Shown here piece by piece: positions 31,832 to 51,251 of a stretch of 64,000 bases of DNA (position 1 is the stretch's first letter; each line of letters starts with the position of its first letter). The notes below the pieces were generated by a model that had not been told where the DNA came from, searched no databases, and worked only from the letters and a program-made list of their open reading frames with translations. The DNA is from Rhodanobacteraceae bacterium ZG21-1 (GTDB lineage Bacteria > Pseudomonadota > Gammaproteobacteria > Xanthomonadales > Rhodanobacteraceae): positions 62,001 through 126,000 of the forward strand of contig JAJEJU010000020.1 in NCBI GenBank assembly GCA_021390615.1, given 5' to 3'. The position numbers and the translations under genes are program-made.

Positions 31832-31905
31832 GGGCATTCCCTCGTCTGGTGTCGGGTGATTGTCACTGTGGCGGCGCCCGGCTTCCTGTGCCGGAACGCA
31901 TGGAT

Positions 31906-33138
31906 TCACGCCGCCCGCGTCGCCACCACTGGCGGTACCGCCGCGGCGCGCAGGGCCGGCCCCAGCACGGCGAGCTGGCCGAGCGAGAGCAGCACCAGCG
32001 CGCCCAGCGGCAGATAGGTCCATGGCAGCCGCGTCAGCTCGTAGTGGCGCATCAACCACAGGTTGATCGCGTAAGCCAGGCACAGGCCGAGCAGCACGCC
32101 CAGGCCCACCAGCAGCAGATTCTCCAGCTGCAGCTCGCGCAGGATGTGGCTGCGCCGCGCGCCCAGCGCGCGACGCACGCCGATCTGGCGGGTACGCTGC
32201 TGCACCCAGTAGCTGGTCAGGCCCATGATGCCGGCCAGGGTCACCACCAGCACCACCACGCTGACGCCGGCGAGCAGCCAGACCGAGGCCTTGAAGCGCG
32301 CCAGCATCTGCTCGCGCATCTCCGCATAGGTCTGATAGTTCGGATCGATTCCTTCGACCAGCTCGGCACCCAGCTCGCGCTGCAGCGTGGCCTGCACCGC
32401 CTTGCGTACGCCGGCGACCTCGGCGCCGTCCGTGCGCACGGCGAATACCGGCATCGGCCACATCCCCGGGATGCCCGGGAACAGCATGCTGTAATCGATG
32501 TCGTCGCGATTGTCCTGGCTGAACTTGTTGCGCATCAGGTGCTCCACCACGCCGATCACGGTGCGCCGTCCTGCGTTCGCGTCGTCGCCGATGCGGATCA
32601 CCTTGCCCAGCGCATCGCCGCCAGGGAACAGGCGCTCGGCGAGAGCGCGGGTGATGATGGTCGGGCCGCTGTCGTCGAGTCCCACGCTCTTGTAATGGAC
32701 GTCGCGCTCGCTCGCGCTGAAGTCGCGCCCCGCCAGCAGGCGCAGGCCCAGCGCCTCGGTCAGGTGATCGCCGATGTAGACCGCCGTATTGGCCCTGCGG
32801 CCGGTGCCGTCGCCGATCACGTCGCCGTTCATCTGCGCGCTGGTTTCCATCGGCAGCGAACCCGCCACGCTGACCGCGCTCACTCCCGGCACGGCGTGCA
32901 GCGCCGCCTCGGCTTCGAGCAAGCGGCTGGCCGGCCAGGGCTGGCCGCGCGACACCAGCTGCCAGGCGACGATCAACTGATTGGGCTCGGCCACGCCGTC
33001 GGGCGTCAACAGCGGCACCAGCCGCTGCTGCAGCAGGAACAGCACGTTGCAGGCGATCGCGCAGGCCAGCGCCACCTGCAGTACCACCAGCAAGGGCATC
33101 AGTCGGTGACGCCACAAAGGATGCACGATGTGCCGCAT
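31906..33138 (-). CDS. FtsX/MacB-type ABC permease, B subunit of pair 6
   Basis: A 410-residue permease with TM1 at about residues 14-36 (MPLLVVLQVALACAIACNVLFLL), a periplasmic MacB-type domain (PGVSAVSVAGSLPME, LGLRLLAGRDFSASE, IITRALAERLFPGGDALGKVIRIG) and three C-terminal spans. The coupling segment is RTRQIGVRRALGARRSHIL, and the tail ends VVATRAA. It is the most distant of the B subunits: it starts MRHIVHPLWRHR, not with the RPIL motif of the others. It lies 11 bases after its A partner and is the final permease before the DUF885 gene. Confidence 0.9.
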   Translation of the reverse strand: MRHIVHPLWRHRLMPLLVVLQVALACAIACNVLFLLQQRLVPLLTPDGVAEPNQLIVAWQLVSRGQPWPASRLLEAEAALHAVPGVSAVSVAGSLPMETSAQMNGDVIGDGTGRRANTAVYIGDHLTEALGLRLLAGRDFSASERDVHYKSVGLDDSGPTIITRALAERLFPGGDALGKVIRIGDDANAGRRTVIGVVEHLMRNKFSQDNRDDIDYSMLFPGIPGMWPMPVFAVRTDGAEVAGVRKAVQATLQRELGAELVEGIDPNYQTYAEMREQMLARFKASVWLLAGVSVVVLVVTLAGIMGLTSYWVQQRTRQIGVRRALGARRSHILRELQLENLLLVGLGVLLGLCLAYAINLWLMRHYELTRLPWTYLPLGALVLLSLGQLAVLGPALRAAAVPPVVATRAA

Positions 33139-33149
33139 GCCGATCTCCC

Positions 33150-34469
33150 TCAGGCCTGTTTGATCTGCAAGGCCGGCGGCAGGCGGCAGATACGCCACGC
33201 CGGCAGGATGCCCACGACTAGCCCGACCGCCAGCGACAGCAGCAGCAAGCCGGCGAAGACCATGCCGCTGAAGTCCGCCGCCACCGCATAGCTGACTGGC
33301 TGCTGGCGCACGATCCACAGCCCGCACCAGGTCAGCGGCAGCGCGATCAGGCCGCCGATCAGGCCGATCAGGCCGGTCTCGATCAGGTGCTGCGCGAACA
33401 CCTGGCGCCGGCTCGCGCCCAGCGCGCGCCGGATCGCCACGTCGGCCTGCCGGCGCAGGAAGCGCGCGGCCAGCAGGCCGGCCACGTTGATCATGCACAG
33501 CAGCAGGAAGGCGCCGGCCAGCATGACGTTCAGGCGCACGTCGTCGGGTACCACGTGGTTCGCCGTCATCCAGCCGCTGGCGTCGTACAGACGCGCCTGC
33601 GGTGGATGGGCGAAGCGCCCAGCGTCGTGCTGCGCCTGCGCATAGCCGAACAGGAAACGCTGGTAATCGGCGACCGCGGCAGTCCCGTCCAGCGCCAGCC
33701 ATACCTCCAGCCAGCGGCACTGGCCGACCTCGGCGGACTGGAAGCTCACCACCGCCGCATCCTTGCTGCATTCGCCCGAAGTAAGCGGCCCCACCCCGCC
33801 GTCCAGCGCCGCCTCGACCGGCACGAAGAACTGCTCGTTCTGGCCAAGCACGCTGCCCAGATTGCGCGACACATCGAGGAACTGCATGCGTGGGCTCCAC
33901 GGCGCAATCACTCCGATCACCCGATAGACATGCTTGCCCATCGCCACGTTGCGGCCGACCGCGTCGTCGGTGCCGAACAGCTTCTGTGCCAGGTCGGCGT
34001 CGATCAGCACCACCGGCGCGCGCGAAGACTGTTCTGCCGGCATCCAGCTGCGGCCATGGCGCAAGGCTACGCCCAGCATGTCCGGCAGCGGCCCGTAGGC
34101 CATCAGACCCATCACCTGGTCGGACTGGCGACCGTCGGGATTGCCGACCTGCTGCAGGCTCTGCGCCAGCGCAGCCTGCTGGCGCGCGCGACCGGTGTCG
34201 ACCAGCGCTTTGGCATCGCTTAGGCGCAGATAGCTGTCCGGGACTGCCTGGCGCTCGTTGTCGCGATCGCCAGGCTCGTGCGCATCCATGCTGGCCACGT
34301 AGAGGTGCGCGCTGATGCCCGGCAACGGTTCGCCTGACAGCGTGGTGGCGATGGTCAGCGCGGCCATGCACGCGGCCACACCGATCGCCATGGTCAACAC
34401 CAGCAGCGACAACATCGGCAGGTTCTGCCGACAGCGCCGCAAAGCCAGTCTCAGGTAATAGCCGAACAT
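33150..34469 (-). CDS. FtsX/MacB-type ABC permease, A subunit of pair 6
   Basis: A 439-residue permease. The start is placed at the ATG at 34469 (MFGYYLRLALRRCRQN), matching the MFGYYLDLALRS opening of other A subunits; a GTG one codon earlier is also in frame. The coupling segment is RRQADVAIRRALGASRRQVF. The periplasmic domain carries the A-type cysteine pair (SGEC, 16 residues, CRWLEVWLALD). The sequence between is the most divergent of the six A subunits, for example PLPGISAHLYVASMDAHEPGD where others have a PQLDP-like stretch. 40 bases after pair 5. Confidence 0.9.
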   Translation of the reverse strand: MFGYYLRLALRRCRQNLPMLSLLVLTMAIGVAACMAALTIATTLSGEPLPGISAHLYVASMDAHEPGDRDNERQAVPDSYLRLSDAKALVDTGRARQQAALAQSLQQVGNPDGRQSDQVMGLMAYGPLPDMLGVALRHGRSWMPAEQSSRAPVVLIDADLAQKLFGTDDAVGRNVAMGKHVYRVIGVIAPWSPRMQFLDVSRNLGSVLGQNEQFFVPVEAALDGGVGPLTSGECSKDAAVVSFQSAEVGQCRWLEVWLALDGTAAVADYQRFLFGYAQAQHDAGRFAHPPQARLYDASGWMTANHVVPDDVRLNVMLAGAFLLLCMINVAGLLAARFLRRQADVAIRRALGASRRQVFAQHLIETGLIGLIGGLIALPLTWCGLWIVRQQPVSYAVAADFSGMVFAGLLLLSLAVGLVVGILPAWRICRLPPALQIKQA

Positions 34470-34509
34470 CACGCGCAGACCCTCCTCACATCGCCCTTCG
34501 AATGCCGTG

Positions 34510-35742
34510 TCATACCGAGCGCGTCGCCACTACCGGCGGCACTGCCGCGGCGCGCAGCGCCGGCGCCAGCACCGCCAGCTGGCCGATGCCCCACAGCAAG
34601 GCCGCGCCGACGGGCAGGTAGGCCAGCGGCAGTCGCGGCAGTTCGTAGCGGTGCATCAGGAACAGGTTGATGCCGTAGGCGAACACCATGCCCAGCACGA
34701 TGCCGGCGCTGGCCAGCAGGAAGTTCTCGGTCTGGAAGTAGTGCAGGATGTCGCCGCGGGTGGCACCCAGCGCGCGGCGCACGCCGATGGTGCGGCGGCG
34801 CTGCGCCACCCAGAAGCTGGCCAGCCCGAAGATGCCCAGCGCGGTGACCAGCAACAGGGCCACGCAGATGCCCACGAGCAGGCCGGCCATCGCGCGGTCG
34901 TTCTGGAAGAACTCGGCGCGGATCTGCTCCCAGTTCCGGCTGGCCAGGATCACCCGGTGCGGGTTGCGCGCCTTCAGCGCCGCCAGTGCGGCCTGCATGA
35001 CGCGGGCGCGATCCTGCGGCGCGGTGCGGATCAGGAAACTGTTGCCCTCCTTCACCAGCTCGCGGATCGGCAGCACCAGGCTGTAGTCGCCGCCCAGCGC
35101 CAGGTTGCTGCCGCGCGCCAGGTGCGCGACCACGCCGACCACGCGGATCGGCACGCTGCGGAAGTAGATCTGCCGGCCCAGCGGGTTCTGCCCGGGCCAC
35201 AGCTGCTCGGCCATGGCCTGGGTGATGACCAGCGTATGCGGCACGCCCTGCTCCTGCGCGTCGCCGCCGGCGAAGGCTTTGGAGACCTCGTCGGCGTAGC
35301 GGAATTCTTCCGGCTGCAGCTCGCGACCGGCCACCAGCCGCGTGCCCAGCGTCGCCAGCAGATTTTCGCCGGTATACATGGCCGCGTTGAGCGAGGCGGT
35401 CTTCTGCGCGGGGTCCAGCTTGACCTCGGTATTGAACTCGGAGCCGGCCAGCGGCACCAGGCCGGCCAGGCTGACCTGCCGCACGCCGGGCACGGCGCGC
35501 AGCGCAGCCAGGTCTTCCTGCACGCGCGCCTTCGCGTCGGGCTCCTCGCGCAGATTGGCCACGTCGATCGCCAGCAGCTCCTGCTCGGCGATGCCGCTGG
35601 GCATGGCCATGGCCTGCAGGCGCTGGCTGATCAGGAACACCGCGTTGCACACGATCGCACAGGTCAGCGCTATCTCCAGGATCACCAGCCAGGCGGTGAT
35701 CTTGTGCTTGCGCAGAGCGGAAACGATCGGCCGCACGGTCAT
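34510..35742 (-). CDS. FtsX/MacB-type ABC permease, B subunit of pair 5
   Basis: A 410-residue permease opening MTVRPIVSALRKHKITAWLVILEIALTCAIVCNAVFLIS (TM1). The periplasmic domain has PGVRQVSLAGLVPLAG, LGTRLVAGRELQPEEF and LVITQAMAEQLWPGQNPLGRQIYFR; the coupling segment is RRRTIGVRRALGATRGDILHYFQTENFLLAS. It is very close to the pair-2 B subunit (shared QNPLGKTI-like and NDRAMAGLLVGI stretches). The start is 2 bases after the A5 stop, so translation is probably coupled. Confidence 0.92.
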   Translation of the reverse strand: MTVRPIVSALRKHKITAWLVILEIALTCAIVCNAVFLISQRLQAMAMPSGIAEQELLAIDVANLREEPDAKARVQEDLAALRAVPGVRQVSLAGLVPLAGSEFNTEVKLDPAQKTASLNAAMYTGENLLATLGTRLVAGRELQPEEFRYADEVSKAFAGGDAQEQGVPHTLVITQAMAEQLWPGQNPLGRQIYFRSVPIRVVGVVAHLARGSNLALGGDYSLVLPIRELVKEGNSFLIRTAPQDRARVMQAALAALKARNPHRVILASRNWEQIRAEFFQNDRAMAGLLVGICVALLLVTALGIFGLASFWVAQRRRTIGVRRALGATRGDILHYFQTENFLLASAGIVLGMVFAYGINLFLMHRYELPRLPLAYLPVGAALLWGIGQLAVLAPALRAAAVPPVVATRSV

Positions 35743-35744
35743 GC

Positions 35745-37046
35745 TCAAGCCTCCTTCAGCTGCAGCGCGGGGGCGATCTGGCAGGCGCGCCAGGCCGGCA
35801 GCAGACCGGCCGTCAGGCTGGCGCCCAGCGCCAGCGCGAAGGTGACCAGCAACATCGGCGCATCCAGCTGGGCCAGCGCGGCGTAGTCGGTCGGCCGCTG
35901 CCGCACCAGCCACAGCCCGCCCAGCGCCAGCAGCAGGCCGCCCAGGCCGCCGCTCAGGCCGATCACGCCCGACTCCACCAGCAGCTGCGCGAACAGCGCG
36001 CGCTTGGAGGCGCCGAGCGCGCGACGGACCCCCAGCTCGTCGTTGCGGCGCATGAACTTGGCCAGCATCAGCCCCACCGTGTTGACCAGGCACACCAGCA
36101 GGAAGCCCGCCGCCAGCCAGGTCTGCAGGCGCACGTCGCTGGGCACCACGCGCTGGTAGCCCAGCCAGTCCATCAGGTTGCGCAGGCGCACGTTGAGCGG
36201 ACGCTGGAAGCGCCCCAGCGCCTGCTGCTCCTGCGAATAGTGTTCGAGGAAACTGCGGTAGCCGACCGCCTGCGCCGGATCGTCCAACTGCACCCAGAAC
36301 TGCAGCCAGACGCAGGGCGCCGTGGCCAACTGGCCGACCGCATAGCCGCCCCAGCAGCTGATGCTGCCGTTGATGGCGAGCTTGGCGTCCAACGCGCTCT
36401 GCAGCGGCAGGAACACGTCCTCGGCACGGGCGTAGCTGCCGGCGATGTGCAGATCGTAGAAGTGCGGACTGGGCCGCCAGGCGTCGAGCACGCCAACGAT
36501 GCGGAACGCGCTGTCGCCCAGCTGCAGCAGCTGGCCGGTGCTGTCGCGGCCGCCGAACAGACGGTCGTTGAGCGAACGGCTGATCACCGCCACGCGCGCC
36601 TTGGCCTGGTCGTCGGCCGCGGACCAGGCGCGGCCGTAGCGCATCGGCACCTCGAACATCGGGAAGAAGTCGGCAGTGGTGTAGCGCGCGTCGGCAAAGA
36701 ACGGATCGACGTCGCCGCGCGGCGGCTCCACCGGCACCGAGCCGCCGGTCATCAACGCCTGGCGCTCGGCGCGATGCGCGCGCAGCAGGTTCATGCCGTC
36801 GATCAGGGTGACCTGTCCAGGCGGCTCCACGCCGGGCCGATAGCCGTCCAGATCCTGTGGATCCAGCTGCGGATAGAACAGCATCTGGCTGCGCCCCGGC
36901 AGCGGATCGTTCGACAGCACATGCAGCACGGTCAGCGTGGTCATGCTGGTGCCGATGCCCAGCGCGATCGCCAGCACCATCAGCCCGGTGAGCGCCTTGT
37001 GGCGGCTGAAGCTGCGCAGCGCGAGATCGAGGTAGTAGCCGAACAT
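35745..37046 (-). CDS. FtsX/MacB-type ABC permease, A subunit of pair 5
   Basis: A 433-residue permease: MFGYYLDLALRSFSRHKALTGLMVLAIALGIGTSMTTLTVLHVLSNDPLPGRS. The periplasmic domain includes YTTADFFPMFEVPMRYGRAWS, RLFGGRDSTGQLL and IVGVLDAWRPSPHFYDLH. The cysteine pair is ISCWGG, 13 residues between, then CVWLQFWVQLDD. Coupling segment RRNDELGVRRALGASKRALF; tail ALQLKEA. Its closest relative in the window is A2 (shared FYPQLDP, DLDGYRPG and RFQRPLNVRLR type blocks). Confidence 0.92.
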   Translation of the reverse strand: MFGYYLDLALRSFSRHKALTGLMVLAIALGIGTSMTTLTVLHVLSNDPLPGRSQMLFYPQLDPQDLDGYRPGVEPPGQVTLIDGMNLLRAHRAERQALMTGGSVPVEPPRGDVDPFFADARYTTADFFPMFEVPMRYGRAWSAADDQAKARVAVISRSLNDRLFGGRDSTGQLLQLGDSAFRIVGVLDAWRPSPHFYDLHIAGSYARAEDVFLPLQSALDAKLAINGSISCWGGYAVGQLATAPCVWLQFWVQLDDPAQAVGYRSFLEHYSQEQQALGRFQRPLNVRLRNLMDWLGYQRVVPSDVRLQTWLAAGFLLVCLVNTVGLMLAKFMRRNDELGVRRALGASKRALFAQLLVESGVIGLSGGLGGLLLALGGLWLVRQRPTDYAALAQLDAPMLLVTFALALGASLTAGLLPAWRACQIAPALQLKEA

Positions 37047-37084
37047 TCAAGAGCTCCCGTGCACGATCGTTCGCGCGGCCGCCG

Positions 37085-38299
37085 TCATACCGAGCGCGTG
37101 GCCACCACCGGCGGCACCGCCGCCGCGCGCCGCGCCGGCCCCAGCACCGCCAGCTGGCCCAGGCACCACAGGGTCAGCGCGCCCACCGGCAGGTACAGCA
37201 GCGGCAGTCGCGGCAATTCGTAGAAGCGCATCAGCGCCAGATTCAAGCCGTAGGCCAGCAGCATGCCCAGCGCGATGCCGAAGCTGACGATCAGGAAATT
37301 CTCGGTCTGGAAGTAGCGCAGGATGTCGCCGCGGGTGGCGCCGATCGCGCGGCGGATGCCGATCTGCTTGCTGCGTTGGGTGACCCAGAAGCTGGCCAGG
37401 CCAACGATGCCCAGCGCGGTCACCAGCAGCAGGGCCACGATCACCCCGAGCAGGATGCCGGCCATCGCACGGTCGGCGCGGAAATAGCGCAGGCGCAGTT
37501 CGTCCAGGGTCTGGCTGGCCTGGTTGTCGAGCACGGCGTCCGGCGCGATCTTCACCACCGCCGCGCGGGCGTCGCGCAACACGCGCGGCAGCTGCGCCGG
37601 ATCGGCGCGCAGCAGATAGTTGCCGGCGAGATACATGCCCGGCTGCGCCGGCACGAACACCGACCACTGGATGGTTTCAGGACCACCCTCGCCGCCGTCC
37701 TGCCGCGCCAGGCTCGCGATCACCCCGACCACGCGGAAATGATCGTGGTCGGACCAGAACTCCTTGCCCAGCGGGTCCGCCCCCGGCCACAGATGCTCGG
37801 CCAGCGTGCGCGTCACCATCACCGGCGCATCGTCCGGCTCGAAGTGATTCAGCGGACGGAAATCGTCGGCCTGCGGCGCGCGACCGGCCACCAGCCGCAG
37901 GCCCAGGGCCTCGAACGTGCCCGGGCCGCCGAGGTAGAAATCGATCACGCCGCCGAAGTGCTGCCCGGCCTGGTCGAGGGTGATGCCGGCCGTCCCCGCA
38001 TGCTGGCCGAACGGCACCGCGTTGATCGCGCCGACCGACTGCATGCCGGGAATCCGGCGCAGCCCGTCCAGCATGCGCGCATTGAGATCAATCGAGCCGG
38101 CCTCGTCGAAGCCGGACAGCTTGATGACCGCCAGCGCGCGCTGGTCGATGCCGCTGTCGATCTGAGTCTGACGCAGCCGGCTGACGATCAGGAAACAGGC
38201 GTTGCACAACACCGCGCAGGCCAGCGCGATCTCCAGCGCGATCAGCAAGGTGGCCAGTCGATACTTGCGCAGGGCGGCTAGGATGGGCTGGATCTGCAT
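37085..38299 (-). CDS. FtsX/MacB-type ABC permease, B subunit of pair 4
   Basis: A 404-residue permease, the shortest of the array: MQIQPILAALRKYRLATLLIALEIALACAVLCNACFLIVS as TM1. Periplasmic features are PGMQSVGAINAVPFGQ, LGLRLVAGRAPQADDF and VMVTRTLAEHLWPGADPLGKEFWSD. Coupling segment RSKQIGIRRAIGATRGDILRYFQTENFLIVS; end VVATRSV. Start at 38299 by alignment with the QIRPIL opening of the pair-3 B subunit; the open frame has an upstream ATG at 38329. Gap to A4 is 58 bases. Confidence 0.92.
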   Translation of the reverse strand: MQIQPILAALRKYRLATLLIALEIALACAVLCNACFLIVSRLRQTQIDSGIDQRALAVIKLSGFDEAGSIDLNARMLDGLRRIPGMQSVGAINAVPFGQHAGTAGITLDQAGQHFGGVIDFYLGGPGTFEALGLRLVAGRAPQADDFRPLNHFEPDDAPVMVTRTLAEHLWPGADPLGKEFWSDHDHFRVVGVIASLARQDGGEGGPETIQWSVFVPAQPGMYLAGNYLLRADPAQLPRVLRDARAAVVKIAPDAVLDNQASQTLDELRLRYFRADRAMAGILLGVIVALLLVTALGIVGLASFWVTQRSKQIGIRRAIGATRGDILRYFQTENFLIVSFGIALGMLLAYGLNLALMRFYELPRLPLLYLPVGALTLWCLGQLAVLGPARRAAAVPPVVATRSV

Positions 38300-38357
38300 G
38301 GCTAGGCCACCTGTCGGGAAGGCGCGCATGGGAACGGACTGGCGCTGGAAAAATCCA

Positions 38358-39677
38358 TTACAGCGTCTTCAGCTGCAGCGCCGGCGTGATGCGGCTGGCG
38401 CGCAGCGCGGGCAGCATGCCGGCCAGCAGGCTCGCGGCGATGGCCAGCCCGAACGTGGCCAGGAACATCGGCACGTCCAGATGCACCAGGTCGGCATATT
38501 CGACCGGCTGCCGGCGCACCAGCCACAGGCCGAGCATGGCCAGCAGCCAGCCGCCGATGCCGCCCAGCAGGCCGATCACTCCCGCCTCCACCAGACACTG
38601 CGCGAACACCGTGCCGCGCGACGCGCCGAGCGCGCGGCGCACGCCGATCTCGCCGCTGCGGCGCAGGAATTTGGCCAGCAGCAGCCCCACCGTGTTGAAC
38701 AGGCAAATCAACAGGAAGGCGAAGGCCAGCCAGGTCTGCAGCCGCACGTCGCCGGGAATGGCGCGATTGAAGTCCAGCCACTGCAGCAACGACATCATGC
38801 GGGTGTCGTCGGCGTGCACGAAGCGGCCCAGCGCCTTCTGCTGCTGCGCGTAGGCGGCGATGAAATCGCGGTAGGCGCCGACCTTGGCGACGCTGTCGAG
38901 CTGCACCCACAGCATCACCCACACGCAGGGCCCGGTGCGCAGATCGGACCCCTGCGCGGTGCTCCAGCAGGTGAACACGTTGTAATCGTGGCCGACGATG
39001 TCCTGGCCGCTGTTGAACGGCATGAACACGTCTTCCGGCTTGCTGTAGAAGGATGCGGTCTGACCCTCCGCATAGCGGCCGCCGGCAACGTCGTAGAACA
39101 GCGGCGACGGCCGCCACGGCGCGAGCACGCCGACGATGCGCACGTCGGCGCCCTTCAGCCGCAGCGTGCGGCCCACGCTGTCGGCGCCGCCGAACAATTT
39201 GTTGTTCAAGTCGTCCGAGATCACCACCACCCGCGCGCGCTGCGCGTCGTCCTGTGCGGTCCAGGCGTCGCCGTAGCGGAACGGCACATCGAACATCGGG
39301 AAGAAATCCGCGGTGGTCGACAAGGTCTGCGCCATCAGCGGCGGCAGGTTCACTCCTGGCGCGTTGAGCTTGAGCGCGGCGCTGGCGATCAGCGCCTGGC
39401 GATCGGCGCGATGGGCGCTCCACAGCTCGGTGGCCGAACGATAGTCCATCATGTCGAACGGCGCGTGCCGCTCGCCCGGAGCCGGCGACGGGTTCACCTG
39501 CGGGAAAAACAGCGTGCTGCTGCGTGTGGGCACCGGATCGCCAGAGAGGATGTGCATCACCGTCAGCATGGTCATGCTCGCACCGATGCCTACCGCGATC
39601 GCCAGCACCATCAGCGCGGTGAGCGCGCGATGGCGCTTGAGGCTGCGCAGGGCCAGGTCGAGGTAGTAACCAAACAT
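38358..39677 (-). CDS. FtsX/MacB-type ABC permease, A subunit of pair 4
   Basis: A 439-residue permease starting at MFGYYLDLALRSLKRHRALTALMVLAIAVGIGASMTMLTVMHILSGDPVPTRS. Periplasmic blocks include LSTTADFFPMFDVPFRYGDAWTAQDD and NKLFGGADSVGRTL. The cysteine pair is FTCWST, 13 residues between, CVWVMLWVQLDS. Coupling segment RRSGEIGVRRALGASRGTVF. It is preceded by the widest gap inside the array (121 bases after B3), which holds a perfect 20-bp palindrome, so it may begin a second transcript or be subject to attenuation. Confidence 0.92.
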   Translation of the reverse strand: MFGYYLDLALRSLKRHRALTALMVLAIAVGIGASMTMLTVMHILSGDPVPTRSSTLFFPQVNPSPAPGERHAPFDMMDYRSATELWSAHRADRQALIASAALKLNAPGVNLPPLMAQTLSTTADFFPMFDVPFRYGDAWTAQDDAQRARVVVISDDLNNKLFGGADSVGRTLRLKGADVRIVGVLAPWRPSPLFYDVAGGRYAEGQTASFYSKPEDVFMPFNSGQDIVGHDYNVFTCWSTAQGSDLRTGPCVWVMLWVQLDSVAKVGAYRDFIAAYAQQQKALGRFVHADDTRMMSLLQWLDFNRAIPGDVRLQTWLAFAFLLICLFNTVGLLLAKFLRRSGEIGVRRALGASRGTVFAQCLVEAGVIGLLGGIGGWLLAMLGLWLVRRQPVEYADLVHLDVPMFLATFGLAIAASLLAGMLPALRASRITPALQLKTL

Positions 39678-39771
39678 GCCACGTCTCCATCGCTCGAAAG
39701 CCATCGCTGCACGAACAGAAGCCGGGCCGGCGCCAGCACGGCACCATGCGACTTGCCCGCTCCCCACCTTC

Positions 39772-39791
39772 GCCTCCCGCGCGCGGGAGGC
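39772..39791 (-). terminator. Perfect 20-bp palindrome between permease pairs 3 and 4
   Basis: GCCTCCCGCGCGCGGGAGGC, self-complementary, begins 7 bases after the stop of the pair-3 B gene. In RNA it would form a very stable hairpin with a minimal loop. No T-run follows, so it may be an attenuator, an RNA-processing or stabilising element, or a partial terminator. Confidence 0.45.
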
Positions 39792-39798
39792 CGGACCG

Positions 39799-41028: not shown

Positions 41029-41035
41029 GGCGACC

Positions 41036-42340: not shown

Positions 42341-42371
42341 CGAGATCCCCCCAAGATGCGATGCGATGTGC

Positions 42372-43592: not shown

Positions 43593-43593
43593 A

Positions 43594-44898
43594 TCAGTTG
43601 CTCTTCAGTTGCAGGGCGGGGGCGATCTGGCAGGCGCGCCAGGACGGCAGCAGGCCGGCGGCCAGGCTGGCGCACACGGCGAGCACGAGGGTGATCAGCA
43701 GCATCGAGGCATCCAGGTGCGCCAGCTCGGCGTAGTCGGATGGCTGCCGCCGCACGATCCACAGCCCGAGCAGGGCCAGCAGCAGGCCGATGGCGCCGCC
43801 GACCACGCCGACGATGCCGGACTCGACCAGCAGCTGCGCGAAGACCGCGCGGCGCGAGGCGCCCAGCGCGCGGCGCACGCCCAGCTCGCCGCGCCGGCGC
43901 AGGAACTTGGTCAGCATCAGGCCCATGGTGTTGACCAGGCAGACCAGCAGGAAGCCCAGCGCCAGCCACATCTGCAGACGCACGTCGCTGGGCACCACCT
44001 TGTTGTAGTCCAGCCATTCGGTCAGGCCGCGCAGGCGCACGTTGGGCGGGCGCTGGAAGCGGCCCAGGGCCTTCTGCTCCTGCACGTAATGGGTCAGGTA
44101 TTCCTTGTAGGCGCTGGCCTTGGCCGGCGTATCCAGCTGCACCCAGTACTGCAGCCAGACGCAGGGCGAGGTCTCGATGTGATCGTCGTCGCCGCCGCCT
44201 TTGCCCCAGCAGTCGATCGAGCCGTTGCGGCTGAGGCGGACGTCACGCGACGCGCTCAGCGGCACGAACACGCCCTCGCTGTCCGAGTAGTTGCCCATGT
44301 TGACGTCGTAGAAATGCGGCGAGGGGCGCCAGCTGTCGAGCACGCCGACGACACGGAAGGCGGCATCGTTCATGCGCAAGGTCTGGCCGGTGGAATCCTT
44401 GCCGCCGAACAGCTTGTCGTTCATCCCGCGCGACAGCACCACCACGCGGGCATGCGCCTCGTCGTCGGCGCCGCTCCAGGGATGCCCGTACAGGAACGGC
44501 ACCTGGAACATCGGGAAGAAATCCGCGGTGGTGTAGCGCGCATCTTCATAGAACGGATCGATCGCGCTGTCGGCCGGCTGGATCGGCACCGCGCCGCCGG
44601 TCATCAGTGCCTGGCGGTCGGCGCGCGCCGCATGCAGTAGGTTCATGCCGTCGACCCAGGTCACCTGGGCCATCGGTTCGTCGCCCGGGTGATAGCCATC
44701 CATATCGCGCGGATCGAGCTGCGGGTAGTACAGCTGGCCGCTGCGTCCGGGCAGCGGATCGCCGGAGAGCACGTGCAGCACGGTCAGCGTGGTCATGCTT
44801 GCGCCGATGCCCAGCGCCAGGGTCATCACCATCAGCGCGGTGAGCACGCGGTTGCGCTTCAGGCTGTGCAGCGCCAGATCAAGGTAGTAGCCGAACAT
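43594..44898 (-). CDS. FtsX/MacB-type ABC permease, A subunit of pair 2
   Basis: A 434-residue permease: TM1 at about residues 17-44, periplasmic domain about 45-305, TM2 309-332, TM3 about 355-382, TM4 about 398-418. Key blocks are YTTADFFPMFQVPFLYGHPWS, DKLFGGKDSTGQTL and VVGVLDSWRPSPHFYDVN. The cysteine pair is Cys230 and Cys246 (15 residues between), then VWLQYWVQLD. Coupling segment RRRGELGVRRALGASRRAVF (about 335-353). Start at 44898 by alignment with other A subunits; a slightly longer start (MSMFGYY) is possible. Confidence 0.92.
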   Translation of the reverse strand: MFGYYLDLALHSLKRNRVLTALMVMTLALGIGASMTTLTVLHVLSGDPLPGRSGQLYYPQLDPRDMDGYHPGDEPMAQVTWVDGMNLLHAARADRQALMTGGAVPIQPADSAIDPFYEDARYTTADFFPMFQVPFLYGHPWSGADDEAHARVVVLSRGMNDKLFGGKDSTGQTLRMNDAAFRVVGVLDSWRPSPHFYDVNMGNYSDSEGVFVPLSASRDVRLSRNGSIDCWGKGGGDDDHIETSPCVWLQYWVQLDTPAKASAYKEYLTHYVQEQKALGRFQRPPNVRLRGLTEWLDYNKVVPSDVRLQMWLALGFLLVCLVNTMGLMLTKFLRRRGELGVRRALGASRRAVFAQLLVESGIVGVVGGAIGLLLALLGLWIVRRQPSDYAELAHLDASMLLITLVLAVCASLAAGLLPSWRACQIAPALQLKSN

Positions 44899-44927
44899 CG
44901 ACATTCCTCGGGTTGCATTTGGTTCGT

Positions 44928-46169
44928 TCATACGGATCGCGTGGCCTCCACCGGCGGCACCCGCGAAGCGCGCAGGGCCGGCGCCAGCACGGCACCCTGC
45001 CCCAGCACCAGCAGCACCAGCACGCCGATCGCCACATAGTCCAGGGACAGCCGCCCCAGCTGGAAATGGGTCACCGTCCACAGGTTGAAGCCGACCGCCA
45101 GCACGATGCCCAGCACCACGCCCGCCGCGCTGATCAGGAAGTTCTCGGTGAGGAAGTAGGCGAGGATGTCGCGCTGACGTGCGCCCAGCGCGCGCCGCAC
45201 GCCGATCTGCCGGCGGCGCTGGCCCACCCAGAAGCTGGTGAGGCCGACGATGCCCGCAGCGGTGATCGCCAGCAGCACCACGCAGATGACGCCCATCAGG
45301 ATCGCCATGCCGCGGTCGCTGTCGTACACCTTGTGGCGGATGGTGGCGTAGTCCTGGATGCCGTCCTTCGGCTCGATGATGCGCAGGCGGCTCTGCGCAT
45401 ACAGCGCCTTGGGCGCCTCGCGCATGGCGTCGGCCAGCTGGCCGGGCTTGGCCCGCACGACGTAGTAGACGCCGCGCGGATCGTCCGCACGGATCGGCCA
45501 GATCAGCGACTCTCCGGCATGGGTGCGGCTCCATCGATCCACACCTTGCCGTTGCAAGGTATCGACGATGCCGACGACGGTGGTCGGTGCCGTGCCCATC
45601 GTGTAGAAGCTTTTGCCCAGCGCGTTGCCGCCGGGGAACAAGCGGTCGGCCAAGGCCTTGCTCACGATCACTGCCGGTGGCGTAAGCGCCTGCTGGGCGC
45701 CCATCGGCAGTACCTCGTCGGGATGGAAATTGCGTCCCGCCACGAGCTTGAGCCCCAGCGTATCGATGAAATGTTCGTCGCCGGTGTACACCGCCGTATC
45801 GGTGGTCGGCTTGGTCTGCTCCGGCGTCATGGTGACGAAGTTGTCCCAGCCGAGGCCCTTCAACGGATAGCCGCTGGCCGGCGTGGCATCGAGCACCGCG
45901 GGCAGCTGGCGCAGCGCGAGCAGGTCGGCGCGCACCAGCGCATCGACCTGCGGCGTCGATTCGTCGATGCCGGCCCACATGTTGGCGACCACGAACACGT
46001 TGGCCTCGTCCACGCCGCTGACCACGGCCAGGTTGGCCAACCGCGCCTGGATGATGAACAGCGCGTTGCACACGATCGCCAGGGTCAGCGCGATCTGCAG
46101 CACGATCAGCAAGGTGCCAGCCTTGTGTCGGCGCAGCGCAACGAGGATGGGGCGAATCTGCAGGTTCAC
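44928..46169 (-). CDS. FtsX/MacB-type ABC permease, B subunit of pair 1
   Basis: A 413-residue permease starting with GTG at 46169 behind a strong GAGGAGG ribosome-binding site. TM1 is KAGTLLIVLQIALTLAIVCNALFII. The periplasmic domain has LPAVLDATPASGYPLKG, LGLKLVAGRNFHPDEV and VIVSKALADRLFPGGNALGKSFYTM. Coupling segment RRRQIGVRRALGARQRDILAYFLTENFLISA; end VEATRSV. It is more diverged than the central B subunits (no alanine-rich RAAAVPP before the tail; it has RASRVPP). Confidence 0.91.
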   Translation of the reverse strand: MNLQIRPILVALRRHKAGTLLIVLQIALTLAIVCNALFIIQARLANLAVVSGVDEANVFVVANMWAGIDESTPQVDALVRADLLALRQLPAVLDATPASGYPLKGLGWDNFVTMTPEQTKPTTDTAVYTGDEHFIDTLGLKLVAGRNFHPDEVLPMGAQQALTPPAVIVSKALADRLFPGGNALGKSFYTMGTAPTTVVGIVDTLQRQGVDRWSRTHAGESLIWPIRADDPRGVYYVVRAKPGQLADAMREAPKALYAQSRLRIIEPKDGIQDYATIRHKVYDSDRGMAILMGVICVVLLAITAAGIVGLTSFWVGQRRRQIGVRRALGARQRDILAYFLTENFLISAAGVVLGIVLAVGFNLWTVTHFQLGRLSLDYVAIGVLVLLVLGQGAVLAPALRASRVPPVEATRSV

Positions 46170-46179
46170 GCTTGCCTCC

Positions 46180-47502
46180 TCAGCTCGATTTCAATTGCCA
46201 GGCCGGCTGCACGTGTGCCGCGCGCCAAGCCGGGTAGAAGGCCGCCAGCACGGTGGCCGCGATGGCCACCAGCAGGGTCAGGCTCACCAGCGAGAAATCC
46301 AGGTGCGCCAGCCGGGCGATCTCCGGCTTGAACAGGATGTCCACGCTCGACACGCCCAGCGCGGTGAGCAGCAGGCCCAGCAGGCCGCCGGCCAGGCCCA
46401 CTGCGCCGGCCTCGATTAGGTATTGCGCATAGATCTCGCCGCGCGTGGCGCCCAGCGCGCGGCGCACGCCGATCTCGCCGGCGCGGCGCATGAACTTCGC
46501 CAGCAGCAGGCCGACGGTGTTGACCAGGCAGATCAGGAAGAAGCCCAGCGCCACCACCAGCGAGATGCGGCTTTCCGGCGACACCACCTGTTCGTAGTCC
46601 ATCCACTCCATCACGTCGCGCAGGCGTATGTTCGGCGCCCAGTTGAAGCGGCCGGCGTGCTGCTGGTTGGCGGCGTAGTTGGTGAGGAAGCGGCGATAGC
46701 TTTCGACCTCGGCGGCACTGTCCAGCTCCACCCAGGGCGTGATCCACACGCAGCTGCTCTGCGTGTAGTCCGTCCAGTTGGTGTAGCTGAGCTGGCCGCG
46801 GCAGGTGTTGCGGCCGTTGATGTAGATGTGCAGGTCCAGCGCGCGGGTGAACAGCATGTAGAAGTCCGTCTGCTCGGCAAAGCCGCTGGTGCTGAACAGG
46901 TCGTAGAAGCGCGGCTGCGGATTCCAGTGGCTGAGCACGCCCACCACGCGATAGTCGTGCCCGCCGAGATTGACCGTGCGACCGGTGCTGTCGGCGCCGG
47001 CGAACAGCTTCTGGTTGAGCTCATCACTGATGACGATGTCGGCAGCCCGCTGGTCGTCGTCCTGCGCGCTCCAGCTGCTGCCGTAGCGGAACGGCACCTC
47101 GAACATCGCGAAGAAATCGCTGCCGACGGCGTAGCCGTTGGCGTTCAGCGGCAGCTCGCGCTTGCCGTCCGGCATCGCTGTGAGCTGCACCGGGTACAGC
47201 ATGGTCTGGCGCTTGGCCGCGGGCGCATGCAGCAGCGCCATCGCGTCCACATAGCCCAGCGCCTCCGGCGGCTCGTTGCGCGGCAGGTTCTGCTGCGGCC
47301 CCCAGCTGTCCAGCTGCGGGGTGAACAGCTGCGACGACTTGTCCGGGATCGGGTTGCCCGAGACGGCGCGAAACACCGAATAGGTGATCATCGACGCCGC
47401 CACCCCGAAGCCGATCGCCATGACCATCAGCGCAGTCAGCGCCGGATTGCGGCGGAGACTGCGCAGGCCTAGCTTCAGGTAGTAGCCGGATGTCGCGATC
47501 AT
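46180..47502 (-). CDS. FtsX/MacB-type ABC permease, A subunit of pair 1
   Basis: A 440-residue permease, first of the array: MIATSGYYLKLGLRSLRRNPALTALMVMAIGFGVAASMITYSVFRAVSGNPIPDKS. Periplasmic blocks are YAVGSDFFAMFEVPFRYGSSWSAQDD, QKLFAGADSTGRTV and YRVVGVLSHWNPQPRFYD. The cysteine pair is NTCRG, 16 residues between, CVWITPWVELDS. Coupling segment RRAGEIGVRRALGATRGEIY; tail WQLKSS. The start lacks the MFGYYL of the other A genes. It follows the TolC-type gene by 28 bases. Confidence 0.91.
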   Translation of the reverse strand: MIATSGYYLKLGLRSLRRNPALTALMVMAIGFGVAASMITYSVFRAVSGNPIPDKSSQLFTPQLDSWGPQQNLPRNEPPEALGYVDAMALLHAPAAKRQTMLYPVQLTAMPDGKRELPLNANGYAVGSDFFAMFEVPFRYGSSWSAQDDDQRAADIVISDELNQKLFAGADSTGRTVNLGGHDYRVVGVLSHWNPQPRFYDLFSTSGFAEQTDFYMLFTRALDLHIYINGRNTCRGQLSYTNWTDYTQSSCVWITPWVELDSAAEVESYRRFLTNYAANQQHAGRFNWAPNIRLRDVMEWMDYEQVVSPESRISLVVALGFFLICLVNTVGLLLAKFMRRAGEIGVRRALGATRGEIYAQYLIEAGAVGLAGGLLGLLLTALGVSSVDILFKPEIARLAHLDFSLVSLTLLVAIAATVLAAFYPAWRAAHVQPAWQLKSS

Positions 47503-47530
47503 GTGTCTGGACCTTCGCCTTGGAGTCGTG

Positions 47531-48874
47531 TCACTGCAGCAGCCGGTTGACGTCTTCGATGTCGCTCAGCTCGATCGTCCCCGCCGCCTGCTTGAGCGAC
47601 AGCTTGTTCAGCACGTACTGGTAGCGCTGCTGGGTGTAGGTGAAGCGCGACTCGGCCAACACCTGGATCGCGTTCACCACTTCGATCAGCCGCTGCGTGC
47701 CGATCTCGTAGCCGGCCTTCAGCGAGGCCAGCGACTTCTCCGCGGCGGCCACCGAATCGCGCGCGGTCTGCACTTGCTCGGCGCCATCCACCACCAGGTT
47801 GAAGTAGTTGTAGACGTCGCGCACGGCCTGGCGGCGCTGGCTTTCCAGACTGTCCGAATCGGCGTCGCGCTGGTGGATCGCCTGGCGTACCTGCGACTGC
47901 ACCAGGCCGCCGCTGAACAACGGAATGCTCAGGGTCAGGCCGACCGTGGTGGTGCTCGGCCCGTAGGCGGCGCTGCCCGGCCTCTCGTTCGACCAGCTGC
48001 CGAACTTGTCGAACTGCACGCCGGCGCTGAGCGTGGGCAGGTGCCCGGCGCGTGCCGCCAAGATCTTGTGCTCGTCCGAGGTCACCGCATAGCGCGCGGC
48101 CAGGATGGTCGGGTTGGTCTGCTCGGCCACGCTGGCCCAGGCCTTGGGATCGTTCGGCTCGGGCGGCTGCATCGGCAGTTCGTCGCGCAGCTTCTTCAGC
48201 GTGCCGGCCGGCTTGCCGGTGATCTGCTCCAGCGCCCGCTCGGCGTCCTTCAGGCTGTCCTGCGCGCTGATCCGCTGCGACTTGATGTAGAGGTACAGCG
48301 CCTGCGACTGGCTGACGTCGGCGGCCATCGCCAGGCCGTTCTTGAAGCGCGCGCTGGTCTGCTCGAACTCCTGCTTGTAGCCGTCCTCGTAGGCCTGGTT
48401 GATCTCCAGCGCGTCCTGCGCCTGCAGCACGTTGAAATAGGCCGTAGCCACGCGCACGTAGAGGTTCTGCAGGGCGGCGCGATAGGTCTCGTCCTGCGAA
48501 CTGGCGATGGCGTGCGCCGCGCGCAGGCTGGCGATGTCGGCCAGGTTGACGATGGTCTGGTTGAGCGAGCCATTCAGATCGCGGCCGCGCGTATGCCCGC
48601 CGTTGCTCGCCGACACCGTATTGCCGTTCTGCTGGTTGCTGCTGCCGCCATGCACTTGATCGAGGCTCAGGCCCGCGGACAGCTGCGGCAGCAGCGCTGC
48701 GCGCGCCTGCGGCACCTGCTCGGCCACGACCAGGCGCTGGGCGTCGGCGCCGGCCAGCACCGGGTCGTTGGCGACGGCCTGGCGATACACGTCCAGCAAG
48801 TCCTCGCAGCGCCCCGTCGAGGGCGCCAGGGACAGCAGGCATAACAGCGGCAGCAGCTTGGCTCGCATGGGCAT
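47531..48874 (-). CDS. TolC-family outer-membrane efflux protein
   Basis: A 447-residue outer-membrane channel protein with a signal peptide (RAKLLPLLCLLSLAPSTGRC) and two OEP repeats. The first starts LLDVYRQAVANDPVLAGADAQRLVVAEQVPQARAALLPQLSAG and the second TNPTILAARYAVTSDEHKILAARAGHLPTLSAG; LFSGGLVQSQVRQA and LIEVVNAIQVLAESRFTYTQQRYQYVLN are also typical. TolC trimers form the outer-membrane duct of tripartite exporters; here it should dock with the HlyD-type adaptor encoded upstream. Starts at 48874 or 48868 are possible. Confidence 0.94.
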   Translation of the reverse strand: MPMRAKLLPLLCLLSLAPSTGRCEDLLDVYRQAVANDPVLAGADAQRLVVAEQVPQARAALLPQLSAGLSLDQVHGGSSNQQNGNTVSASNGGHTRGRDLNGSLNQTIVNLADIASLRAAHAIASSQDETYRAALQNLYVRVATAYFNVLQAQDALEINQAYEDGYKQEFEQTSARFKNGLAMAADVSQSQALYLYIKSQRISAQDSLKDAERALEQITGKPAGTLKKLRDELPMQPPEPNDPKAWASVAEQTNPTILAARYAVTSDEHKILAARAGHLPTLSAGVQFDKFGSWSNERPGSAAYGPSTTTVGLTLSIPLFSGGLVQSQVRQAIHQRDADSDSLESQRRQAVRDVYNYFNLVVDGAEQVQTARDSVAAAEKSLASLKAGYEIGTQRLIEVVNAIQVLAESRFTYTQQRYQYVLNKLSLKQAAGTIELSDIEDVNRLLQ

Positions 48875-48908
48875 ACTCAGGGCGTGGTGAACGGGAGGGC
48901 GCACGGCA

Positions 48909-49625
48909 TCAGGCGCTGTGACGGTTGTCCTGGGTCGCCGTGCGGAAGCGCGGATCCTCGGCGAGGTCGACCACCTGGCCGTCGATCACGTGCACGTTGC
49001 GCTGCGCGCGCAGGGCCAGCTCGGGATCGTGGGTGACCATCACGATGGTGGCGCCCTCGCGGTGGATCTCCTCGAGCAGCTCCATCACGCCGCGGGCCAT
49101 CTGGGTGTCCAGGTTGCCGGTCGGTTCGTCGGCCAGCAGCAGGCGCGGCGAGCCGGCCAGCGCACGGGCGATCGCCACGCGCTGCTGCTGGCCGCCGGAG
49201 AGTTCCGCCGGATAGTGCTTGGCGCGCGAGGCCAGGCCGACGCGCTCCAGCGAATCCATGATGCGCTGCTTGCGCTCGGCCGCCTTCATGCCGCGGTAGC
49301 GCAGCGGCACCTCGACGTTGTCGTAGACGTTGAGATCGGGAATCAGGTTGAAGGCCTGGAAGATGAAGCCGATCTTCTCGTTGCGGATCTTCGAGCGGGC
49401 GTTGTCGTTGAGCTGGCTCACCTCGATGCCGTCGAGGTGGTACTGGCCGCCGGTGAAGGTCTCGAGCAGGCCGGCGATGGTTAGGAAGGTGGTCTTGCCG
49501 GAACCCGAAGGCCCGGTGACGGCGACGAACTCGCCTTCCTTCACGTCGATGTTGAAATCGCGCAGCGCATAGGTTTCCACCACTTCGGTGCGGTAGACCT
49601 TGGACAGGTGGGTCATCTTGAGCAT
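48909..49625 (-). CDS. ABC transporter ATPase (MacB/LolD type)
   Basis: A 238-residue ATPase, the only nucleotide-binding subunit in the locus. Walker A GPSGSGKTT is at about residues 38-46, then the Q-loop FIFQAFNLIPDLNVYDNVEVPLRYRG, the signature ELSGGQQQRVAIARAL, Walker B LLLADEPTGNLD and the switch VTHDPELA. Genes of this type energise FtsX/MacB permeases by mechanotransmission. With twelve permease genes downstream, the single ATPase probably pairs with several permease heterodimers. 34 bases before the TolC-type gene. Confidence 0.96.
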   Translation of the reverse strand: MLKMTHLSKVYRTEVVETYALRDFNIDVKEGEFVAVTGPSGSGKTTFLTIAGLLETFTGGQYHLDGIEVSQLNDNARSKIRNEKIGFIFQAFNLIPDLNVYDNVEVPLRYRGMKAAERKQRIMDSLERVGLASRAKHYPAELSGGQQQRVAIARALAGSPRLLLADEPTGNLDTQMARGVMELLEEIHREGATIVMVTHDPELALRAQRNVHVIDGQVVDLAEDPRFRTATQDNRHSA

Positions 49626-49715
49626 GAGTACGTCCTTCAGTGGTGGAGTGAATGAACTTTCAAGAGTGCGGCCAGGAATGGCCGCTGTTTGACGTCGCGC
49701 CCGGGGACGAGCGCG

Positions 49716-50987
49716 CTAGTTGCTGATCGCCACCCGCGCGGCGTTCTTGAAGTTATCGGTGCCGGAGATCACGATGCGATCGCCCTGCTTCAGGCCGTCG
49801 AGGATCTCCACCTTGTCGATGCTGCTGGCGCCGACGCGGATCGGCGTGCGGGTGGCGATGCCGTCGCGCACCACGTAGGCGTAGCTGCCGCCGGACTCGT
49901 CCACGAAGGAGCCGCGCTGCACGGTGAGCACGTCCTCGCGGCGGTCGAGCAGCACGCGCACCGACAGGCGCTGGTTCTGCCGCAGCTGCTTCGGCGTCTC
50001 GCCGTCGAAGCGCAGCCGGGCAGCCACCTCGCCGTTCACTACCTCGGGCGAGATCGCGCTCACCAGACCCTTCCACACATTGCCGTTGCCGCTGATCTCG
50101 CCGGCCATGCCGATGCCGAGGTCGCGCGCGAAGCTCTCAGGCACCTGCATCTCGACCTGCAGCGCCGACAGGTCGATCACGCTCAGCAGTTGCGCGTCCT
50201 TCGCCACCGTGGCGCGTTCGGCGATGAACAGCTGGCCGACCTGGCCGTCCACCGGCGACTTCACGTTGAGGCTGTCCACCTGGCGCTGCAGGTCCTGCAC
50301 CACCAGCAGCTGGTTGTCGTGCGCCAGCTTCTTCGACTGCACGTTGAACTTCAGGCTGTCGTTGTTCATGCCCATGTCGGACTTGGCGTGGGCCAGCGCG
50401 ATGCGCGCCTTCTCCAGCGTGTCCTTCGACTGGTCCACCTCGACGCCGGTGGCGGCGCCGGCGGCGAAGGCCTTCTGCTCGCGCGCCAGGTTGGTCTCGG
50501 CGCTCTTCTCATCGATCTGCGCGTTGTCGTAGGCCTTCTGCAGCTCGCTCTGCTTGGTGCGCGCGTCGACTTGGGCCTGCATGTAGTCGACCTGCATGGC
50601 ATCGGCCTTCGACTGCTCCTGCGCCAGCTTGCTGATCAGGTCCGGGCTGTCGATCACCGCCAGCACCTGGTCCTTGCGCACCGAGTCGCCGGCGTGCACT
50701 TTCAAGGTCACGGCGCCGCCGTACACGGCGTACAGGGTCGGGCTGACCGCCGCGACTACCTTGCCCTCGGCGGCGATGTCGCGCACGAACTGACCGCGCT
50801 CCACCGTGGCGAAGGCCAGCCGCGAACTGCTCACCGAGGCGTCGGCGGAAAACAGCCGGGCGATGCCGGGCATGGCCAGCGCCAGCACGGCGACCACCGC
50901 CACGCCGCCACCGATCAGCAGCCAGCGCCGCTTGCTGTTGGATTTGACCTCGATCGTCCGGTCTTGTGCGGAGGTATCGCGAATCAT
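49716..50987 (-). CDS. HlyD/MacA-type periplasmic adaptor protein
   Basis: A 423-residue membrane-fusion protein. The N-terminal anchor is at about residues 20-42 (RRWLLIGGGVAVVAVLALAMPG), then a first lipoyl half (GAVTLKVHAGDSVRKDQVLAVIDSPDL). A long coiled coil follows (LAQEQSKADAMQVDYMQAQVDARTKQSELQKAYDNAQ and onward), a second lipoyl half (VKSPVDGQVGQLFIAERATV) and beta-barrel domains. It is the first gene of the exporter operon. The ATG at 50987 is about 35 bases downstream of the predicted sigma-54 transcription start; the longer open frame would run through the promoter and is rejected. Confidence 0.94.
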   Translation of the reverse strand: MIRDTSAQDRTIEVKSNSKRRWLLIGGGVAVVAVLALAMPGIARLFSADASVSSSRLAFATVERGQFVRDIAAEGKVVAAVSPTLYAVYGGAVTLKVHAGDSVRKDQVLAVIDSPDLISKLAQEQSKADAMQVDYMQAQVDARTKQSELQKAYDNAQIDEKSAETNLAREQKAFAAGAATGVEVDQSKDTLEKARIALAHAKSDMGMNNDSLKFNVQSKKLAHDNQLLVVQDLQRQVDSLNVKSPVDGQVGQLFIAERATVAKDAQLLSVIDLSALQVEMQVPESFARDLGIGMAGEISGNGNVWKGLVSAISPEVVNGEVAARLRFDGETPKQLRQNQRLSVRVLLDRREDVLTVQRGSFVDESGGSYAYVVRDGIATRTPIRVGASSIDKVEILDGLKQGDRIVISGTDNFKNAARVAISN

Positions 50988-51034
50988 CTGTCTCAGGCCC
51001 CTCGCCGCGGAATGGCGGCTGCTGGGCTGATTAC

Positions 51035-51050: not shown

Positions 51051-51105
51051 CCAAGAAATGCCTTTCTGTTCAATGCATTGGGCCGGCTCGGCCACGGCGG
51101 ACGGG

Positions 51106-51243: not shown

Positions 51244-51251
51244 CTAGCCCC

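Follow-up and report, generated by a model that had tools for sequence, protein, structure and literature searches.

The window analysed here is a stretch of 64,000 nucleotides from Rhodanobacteraceae bacterium ZG21-1, a soil bacterium. Its minus strand carries, between positions 31906 and 50987, the genes of a putative exporter in the order adaptor, one ATP-binding cassette (ABC) ATPase, TolC-type duct, and twelve permeases in strict alternation of two kinds, A and B (A1 B1 to A6 B6). The best explanation of this arrangement, to which we assign a probability of roughly 0.7 from sequence comparison, is that one ATPase is common to several A/B pairs. The array first described in the original prediction is real and more general than stated there, and the newest part of the present work is a sigma-54 promoter and palindrome switch, the regulon under it, and a family of small peptides.

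The anatomy of the locus, the gene numbers, their conservation, the promoter-like sites, and the genes behind them were computed directly. All 15 genes from the adaptor to B6 are intact open reading frames (ORFs) on the minus strand. The periplasmic adaptor of the HlyD/MacA type (49716–50987, 423 aa) matches Pfam HlyD_D23 and HlyD_3 over their cut-offs and TIGR01730 at 118 bits (cut-off 94.9). The single MacB/LolD/DarD-type ATPase (48909–49625, 238 aa) has Walker A, LSGGQ, Walker B, and THD all present, and the outer membrane duct (47531–48874, 447 aa) matches OEP and TIGR01844 (312 bits, cut-off 225). The permease genes, spaced by 1–121 bases, encode A proteins of 433–440 aa and B proteins of 404–413 aa with the starts chosen, and are located at 46180–47502 (A1), 44928–46169 (B1), 43594–44898 (A2), 42372–43592 (B2), 41036–42340 (A3), 39799–41028 (B3), 38358–39677 (A4), 37085–38299 (B4), 35745–37046 (A5), 34510–35742 (B5), 33150–34469 (A6), and 31906–33138 (B6). 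In the domain searches that the original prediction had proposed, each of the twelve exceeds the Pfam cut-offs for both MacB_PCD and FtsX. Every A matches positions 5–401 of the NCBIfam profile ADOP (TIGR03434) and every B positions 410–802, so the alternation is not merely one of length but of the N-terminal and C-terminal halves of one profile. The predicted set of an adaptor, one ATPase, TolC, and twelve alternating permeases is confirmed by these frames and half-matches, and a chance origin of the array is ruled out by its conservation across genera.

Because of the ADOP half-matches and the structural similarity of the modelled A2 and B2 to MacB, A and B are best read as the two predicted subunits of a split heterodimer of the MacB/LolCE type. 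The AlphaFold2 models, which cover these two of the twelve permeases, have a predicted local distance difference test score (pLDDT) of 83 for A2 and 92 for B2. The best PDB match of both is 5gko, the MacB of Acinetobacter baumannii, with a template modelling score (TM-score) by query of 0.68 each, and the next matches are MacB-like and LolCDE structures.

The comparison of pair number across relatives, as proposed in the original prediction, was carried out on 61 genomes (the host's own and 60 relatives), with an adaptor found in 53 and an A permease in 53. The 56 adaptor loci, hereafter main loci, were mapped in stretches of about 7–40 kb; several reach contig ends, so pair counts are minima. 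Exactly one ATPase above 200 bits is present in each of the 56, together with 1–12 pairs (2–12 pairs in 23 of them). The largest locus has 12 tandem pairs and belongs to genome G021, which has 15 A permeases in total. The numbers of A and B are equal in 55 main loci, the sole mismatch being an extra B-like match of 70 bits in G039. Pairs also occur away from the adaptor, at 22 loci in the own genome and its relatives, two of which (in G015) may be pieces of one broken array. At all 22 of these orphan loci, A and B are again equal in number, and 21 of them lack an ATPase above 200 bits. The own genome has eight copies of A, two of them in orphan pairs on contigs C16 and C18, and no match to the ATPase model was found in the 18 kb analysed around each pair. 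For the original proposal of a shared module serving alternative A/B heterodimers, the comparison of sequences supports the sharing, but the presence of TolC in the operon is not general, since TolC was scored in 5 of the 56 main loci, one of them at only 201 bits and upstream of the adaptor.

Single-pair loci are scattered across the order, and expansion is found mainly in part of the family to which the host belongs; G048, a member of another family, separately has four pairs. Among the best 80 of a larger number of loci, the carriers include Rhodanobacter, Dyella, Frateuria, Fulvimonas, Luteibacter, Pinirhizobacter, and one Roseateles. The last, the betaproteobacterium Roseateles toxinivorans (L236), has a close adaptor-ATPase-TolC-A-B copy with the palindrome, which suggests transfer.

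A further line of evidence is the conservation of the ATPase relative to LolD, for which TIGR02211 matches in 30 genomes served as the control, with G036 left out owing to a cut-off, broken match. Across 19 genomes of the many-pair clade (including G017, with a single A), the mean identity is 94.5% for the ATPase versus 77.3% for LolD, and across 10 single-pair genomes of the family (including G014, with two separate single-pair loci) it is 85.2% versus 72.6%. Expressed as divergence relative to LolD, the ATPase gives 0.25 in the many-pair clade versus 0.46 in the single-pair genomes. At LolD identities of 70–75%, the ATPase is 92.9% identical in the former (39 comparisons) versus 86.5% in the latter (26 comparisons), and at 75–80% the values are 95.4% (62 comparisons) versus 87.8% (6 comparisons). 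Additionally, permease paralogues within a genome are 71–76% identical in the RRALGA region and 30–40% identical in the periplasmic domain. The cytoplasmic RRALGA region is where MacB-class permeases meet the ATPase, and its conservation alongside divergent periplasmic domains is the sequence pattern to be expected if a single engine worked with many front ends. A single ATPase serving several permeases has been reported for MsmK, MceG, and FhuC (PMC4519317, PMC9947336, PMC10147376). Those systems are importers, whereas the class considered here is one of exporters in which the adaptor and the duct would be common as well.

The history of the pairs was studied by tree and distance tests on 178 of 179 pairs, G015_oL130_3 being left out for its truncated B. 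The six window pairs cluster first with pairs from other genera, none of them with another window pair, the identity of within-genome paralogues averages 47% for A and 43% for B, and the distance matrices of A and B run in parallel (r 0.91 overall, 0.86 within genomes). These three results indicate that the pairs are old, separately inherited subfamilies. Within them the pair itself is mostly the unit: in 3112 of 4126 comparisons with another genome, A and B select one and the same pair there, versus 772 expected. The shared engine of the original prediction is supported by the combination of one ATPase with 1–12 pairs, pairs without an ATPase elsewhere, the extra conservation of the ATPase, the uniform contact motif, and this co-divergence of A and B.

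The control region of the operon was recognized from recurring TGTCCG fragments in a scan of upstream sequences, which led to the palindrome TGTCCGCGGACA (51106–51117); the promoter TGGCACGGGCTTTGCG (51034–51049, minus strand), agreeing with 10 of 11 positions of the sigma-54 consensus, was then found by a sigma-54 scan. The palindrome, proposed to be the binding site of an NtrC-type regulator, is kept upstream of the adaptor across genera. In the window operon it lies 68 bp upstream of the promoter, start to start, and in other genomes the median distance is 78 (interquartile 77–78, range 64–87). A composite site, defined as the dyad with at most one mismatch plus the sigma-54 site, is present upstream of 103 of 126 adaptors (duplicate genomes included) and in 0 of 2940 shuffles, and the 23 adaptors lacking it belong mostly to single-pair and more distant loci. 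The window also encodes an NtrC-family sigma-54 response regulator (27987–29327, 446 aa, minus strand), recognized by its domains and by synteny, with receiver, sigma-54 AAA, and Fis-type helix-turn-helix domains (Response_reg, Sigma54_activat, HTH_8) and the loop in GAYTGA form. A histidine kinase is encoded at 25930–27327 on the same strand (465 aa, start uncertain), with HATPase_c over its cut-off, HAMP below it, and an H-box recognized by eye. An activator of this composition together with a -24/-12 promoter and an upstream dyad is the constitution of an NtrC/sigma-54 regulon, and the neighbourhood of the genes indicates that this regulator and kinase probably activate the operon via TGTCCGCGGACA.

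Bare palindromes with at most one mismatch occur in the own genome at chance level (15 places, three of them perfect, versus 23 for the reversed control), for which reason composite sites were used; one of the three perfect copies, at C18:587632 (L243), has no sigma-54 site beside it. A strict genome-wide search for the composite found 67 sites, spread over 30 of the 61 genomes, and the reversed pattern had none. Exporters account for 28 of these sites, small-peptide genes for 25, and orphan pairs for 6; the other 8 precede two stand-alone tolC, one pcm, one DUF885 gene away from the exporter (L326, genome G014), one gene for a DUF4440 protein, two for alpha/beta hydrolases, and one unexplained case, located in a genome where the exporter search found none. 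Behind pcm follows a tolC-like frame of 66 bits, cut off by the stretch. Genes for TolC and DUF885 therefore belong to the operon in some genomes, and in other genomes they stand at separate places behind a site of this type. With at most one mismatch allowed in the dyad, composite sites are present at 7 of 21 orphan loci, and the proposal that all orphan pairs belong to one regulon was rejected on this count, neither orphan pair of the own genome having such a site. One of the latter (L001, G000:C16, 5439–10437) directly follows genes for a BlaI-type repressor and a BlaR1-type M56 peptidase, with similar neighbours in G007, G009, G013, and G034, and the other (L002, G000:C18, 5585–10232) follows a LytS-like kinase and a LytTR response regulator.

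The second composite site of the own genome (C16:313298) precedes an ORF of 73 residues that ends in SCALPSDGVICPRRVG and lies upstream of a trmL-like gene, recognized by eye. Long forms of this peptide (about 62–74 residues), present in most of the peptide-bearing genomes examined, have a conserved C-terminal two-cysteine motif and an N-terminus that by eye resembles a signal peptide, and short paralogues of about 27–57 aa lack the C-terminal cysteine motif. Alignment of eight members gave 13 invariant columns, namely M1, E4, L11, A14, C19, L21, G24, and M26 together with C, D, G, C, and P at the C-terminus, so that eight of them, Glu4 included, are in the N-terminal hydrophobic stretch. None of the eight members has a match in Pfam or NCBIfam at E < 0.1, the best values being 0.12 and 0.16. 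Sequences resembling ribosome-binding sites precede many of the ORFs. Synonymous codon changes exceed nonsynonymous ones in three of eight comparisons (G003/G028, 20 to 8; G013/G034, 18 to 7; G010/G032, 19 to 11), and the other five, among them G005/G030 (10 to 14), have no synonymous excess. The promoter check covers 47 of the 56 peptide matches in the 61 genomes: 32 are behind a perfect composite, and 12 loci holding 15 of the remaining 24 all have a composite with one dyad mismatch.

The peptide family occurs in 25 of the 61 genomes (E 0.01) and in 141 of 233 genomes of the bacterial family (E 1e-6). In the larger set, 137 of the 167 genomes with at least two A permeases contain it, as do 4 of the 66 that have fewer, according to a cross-table counted by hand in which A permeases were scored among the best seven candidates per genome and counts above seven stand for at least that number. 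Genome G022 encodes the peptide (E 4.7e-11), although none of adaptor, ATPase, and A permease was found there at the thresholds applied. A correspondence of one peptide to each pair was rejected, as the two numbers are not correlated (Spearman -0.21, 24 genomes).

Several observations weigh against a common ATPase and the system built around it. Orphan locus L118 (G012) has its own ATPase, 72% identical to that of the window, and at orphan locus L126 an ABC ATPase with a weak score (76 bits) lies at a distance of about 6 kb; another cellular ATPase may serve the orphan pairs. The adaptor is also more conserved in the many-pair clade, as expected if it is a second shared part. The many-pair state is largely confined to one clade, so the ATPase contrast does not represent many independent events, and the ATPase of G017, a member of this clade that has a single A, is still 95% identical to that of the window. 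The nearest A and the nearest B in other genomes come from one pair in only 112 of 178 cases. Both orphan pairs of the own genome are without the composite site and have regulators of their own, BlaI/BlaR1 and LytTR. Finally, peptide number shows no relation to pair number, and genus g24 has many pairs but no recognized peptide. At L118, no adaptor match was found in the 20 kb analysed around the pair and its ATPase.

The peptide is about equally likely to be a cargo and an accessory subunit, and the two roles belong to different explanations of the array. In the first, which remains tentative, the co-regulated peptide is the cargo, exported by Sec, possibly disulfide-looped, and released via TolC as a signal, a bacteriocin, or a host-directed factor. 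The sigma-54/palindrome site that it has in common with the exporter, tolC, and DUF885 is consistent with this role, as are its occurrence with two or more A permeases and its coding signature, comprising ribosome-binding sites and the synonymous excess in three comparisons. Moreover, MacAB-TolC is reported to handle Sec-exported, disulfide-bonded peptides from the periplasm (PMC8277102). Nevertheless, the gene is not adjacent to the exporter, its strongly conserved N-terminus is unlike a plain signal peptide, one peptide stands against eight pairs in the own genome, five of the eight codon comparisons lack the synonymous excess, and the association is mostly phylogenetic.

In the second explanation, an equally tentative one, the array serves antimicrobial efflux: each pair, as in MacAB or BceAB, would remove a different toxic peptide or amphiphile, and the small peptide would be a membrane subunit that tunes the pump in the manner of AcrZ, reported to be a small pump-bound membrane protein (PMC7267776). 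The concentration of invariant columns in the N-terminal hydrophobic stretch, the many short paralogues without the cysteine motif, and the independence of pair number and peptide number fit such an array, but the conserved two-cysteine motif of the long form, placed after an apparent signal peptide, does not. The two orphan pairs behind BlaI/BlaR1 and LytTR sensors, which suggest envelope or antibiotic stress, point in the same direction as the former features. We know of no resistance phenotype, and no search for one was made.

The remaining explanations concern the ATPase and the copies themselves. The pairs might each depend on a different ATPase from another site, their proximity to the window ATPase being incidental; in keeping with this, the genome contains 15 further matches to the ABC ATPase at E 1e-20. 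The original prediction had named separate ATPases for the other pairs as evidence that would count against it, and as far as tested the own genome has none: the runner-up, 47% identical, lies beside other permeases, another match is LolD (over its cut-off at C17:1111529), and the contact motif is uniform among the paralogues, all of which makes this explanation highly improbable. Even less probable is redundant gene dosage, in which tandem duplication, visible in the adjacency and variable number of the copies, would have multiplied one specificity, given paralogue identities of 47% (A) and 43% (B) and the grouping of window pairs with other genera first.

With a common ATPase as the preferred reading, the system would belong to the MacB/LolCDE (type VII) class of ABC exporters and be both modular and tripartite. 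A and B would form the two halves of a permease dimer, and one ATPase, adaptor, and TolC duct would be common to alternative A/B heterodimers, six in the window and two encoded at other sites of the genome. If it works as MacB does, the common ATPase would hydrolyse ATP to move the periplasmic domains of the bound pair, thereby pushing a periplasmic substrate through the adaptor and TolC, and the pair would set the specificity. The operon would be transcribed from the sigma-54 promoter, with the NtrC-type regulator and the kinase probably acting via the palindrome, and the same switch would, in various genomes, serve some orphan pairs, stand-alone tolC, DUF885 genes, and the small peptide, itself either a cargo or an accessory subunit. 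In this scheme, the sharing, the direction of transport, the substrate, and the binding of the regulator are what we infer. The original interpretation as a whole is partly supported, and the co-regulated peptide family now provides a concrete cargo candidate.

With respect to known classes, ADOP, a family of duplicated permeases, is among the closest systems, and A and B correspond to its N-terminal and C-terminal halves. ADOP permeases are acidobacterial and are not known to have ATPases of their own, and they share with the present system many paralogues per genome and ATPase-less copies. The differences are that A and B are separate genes in all twelve cases rather than two halves of one chain, that each scores 148–205 bits against the curated cut-off of 622.3, which the sum of A and B also misses, and that the main array has an ATPase, an adaptor, and sometimes TolC. 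Regarding the absence of a nearby ATPase, a feature of ADOP, 21 of the 22 other loci conform at 200 bits. MacAB-TolC is similar in the fold of A and B, the MacB_PCD and FtsX domains, the adaptor, and TolC; MacB is, however, a homodimer with a fused ATPase, in contrast to the separate ATPase gene, heterodimers, and many alternative pairs found here, and the MacA equivalog scores 52.8 bits versus 342. The darobactin exporter DarB/C/D is similar in its two-half permease, and DarD is the top NCBIfam match of the ATPase, with DarC among the matches of the adaptor. All these matches are below the curated cut-offs (DarD 254 versus 375 bits, DarC 81.8 versus 450, DarB at most 31 versus 700), DarB is a single chain (777 model positions), and the darobactin system has one permease per system. 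The LolD equivalog likewise scores below its cut-off with the window ATPase (217 versus 307.75 bits). A second, related system was observed in five genomes (L103, L104, L105, L106, L107), where an adaptor and an ATPase, the latter 56–58% identical to that of the window, lie near two or three long frames that each match both the A and B models, apparently representing fused permeases with one ATPase.

Among the neighbouring genes of the window, a DUF885 protein (30002–31837, minus strand, 611 aa, Pfam DUF885 594 bits) is encoded 68 bases past B6, and its gene recurs within the exporter locus in other genomes. Between it and the NtrC-type regulator gene, a small PDZ protein ending in a long proline-threonine tail is encoded at 29414–29962. 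In relatives, the recurrent order behind the pairs is an optional DUF885 gene, the NtrC-type sigma-54 regulator, the kinase, Band 7 and NfeD proteins, and a ThrE-type exporter. Upstream of the adaptor, a divergent frame of 624 aa (51270–53144) has no Pfam match; it overlaps frames of the minus strand and may be no gene. No Rfam RNA element was found in 50900–54700, upstream of the operon.

A possible link to plant immunity is offered by Ordon et al. 2025 (PMC11928319), who report that dssA of Rhodanobacter R179, an ABC transporter permease, lies within an operon of 17 genes and is conserved in Xanthomonadales. In their work, R179 requires dssA to suppress fully the inhibition of Arabidopsis root growth by flg22, and deletion of dssA impairs this suppression. 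Its annotation, phylogenetic range, and operon size, as given there, fit the window array, a comparison made by description rather than by sequence; the words MacB, FtsX, and TolC are absent from the main text as available. From this agreement, dssA probably belongs to this kind of system, and the machine in the window is probably of the kind that relatives need to calm plant immunity. Apart from that paper, no description of the array, the regulon, or the peptide was found in the titles and opening lines of abstracts of the open-licence papers retrieved. A combinatorial peptide secretion system, with swappable heterodimers (up to 15 per genome) under an NtrC/sigma-54 circuit and two-cysteine peptides as the cargo that helps Rhodanobacter and its relatives to suppress plant immunity, is a rather unlikely conjunction of all these parts.

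If true, one engine for many heterodimers in a MacB-class exporter would be a new way to broaden the specificity of export, and a shared engine could account generally for orphan FtsX/ADOP permeases. The regulon provides a concrete handle on the cargo, and the system may join the mechanistically open dssA phenotype in plant immunity to a defined machine, a promoter, and a candidate peptide.

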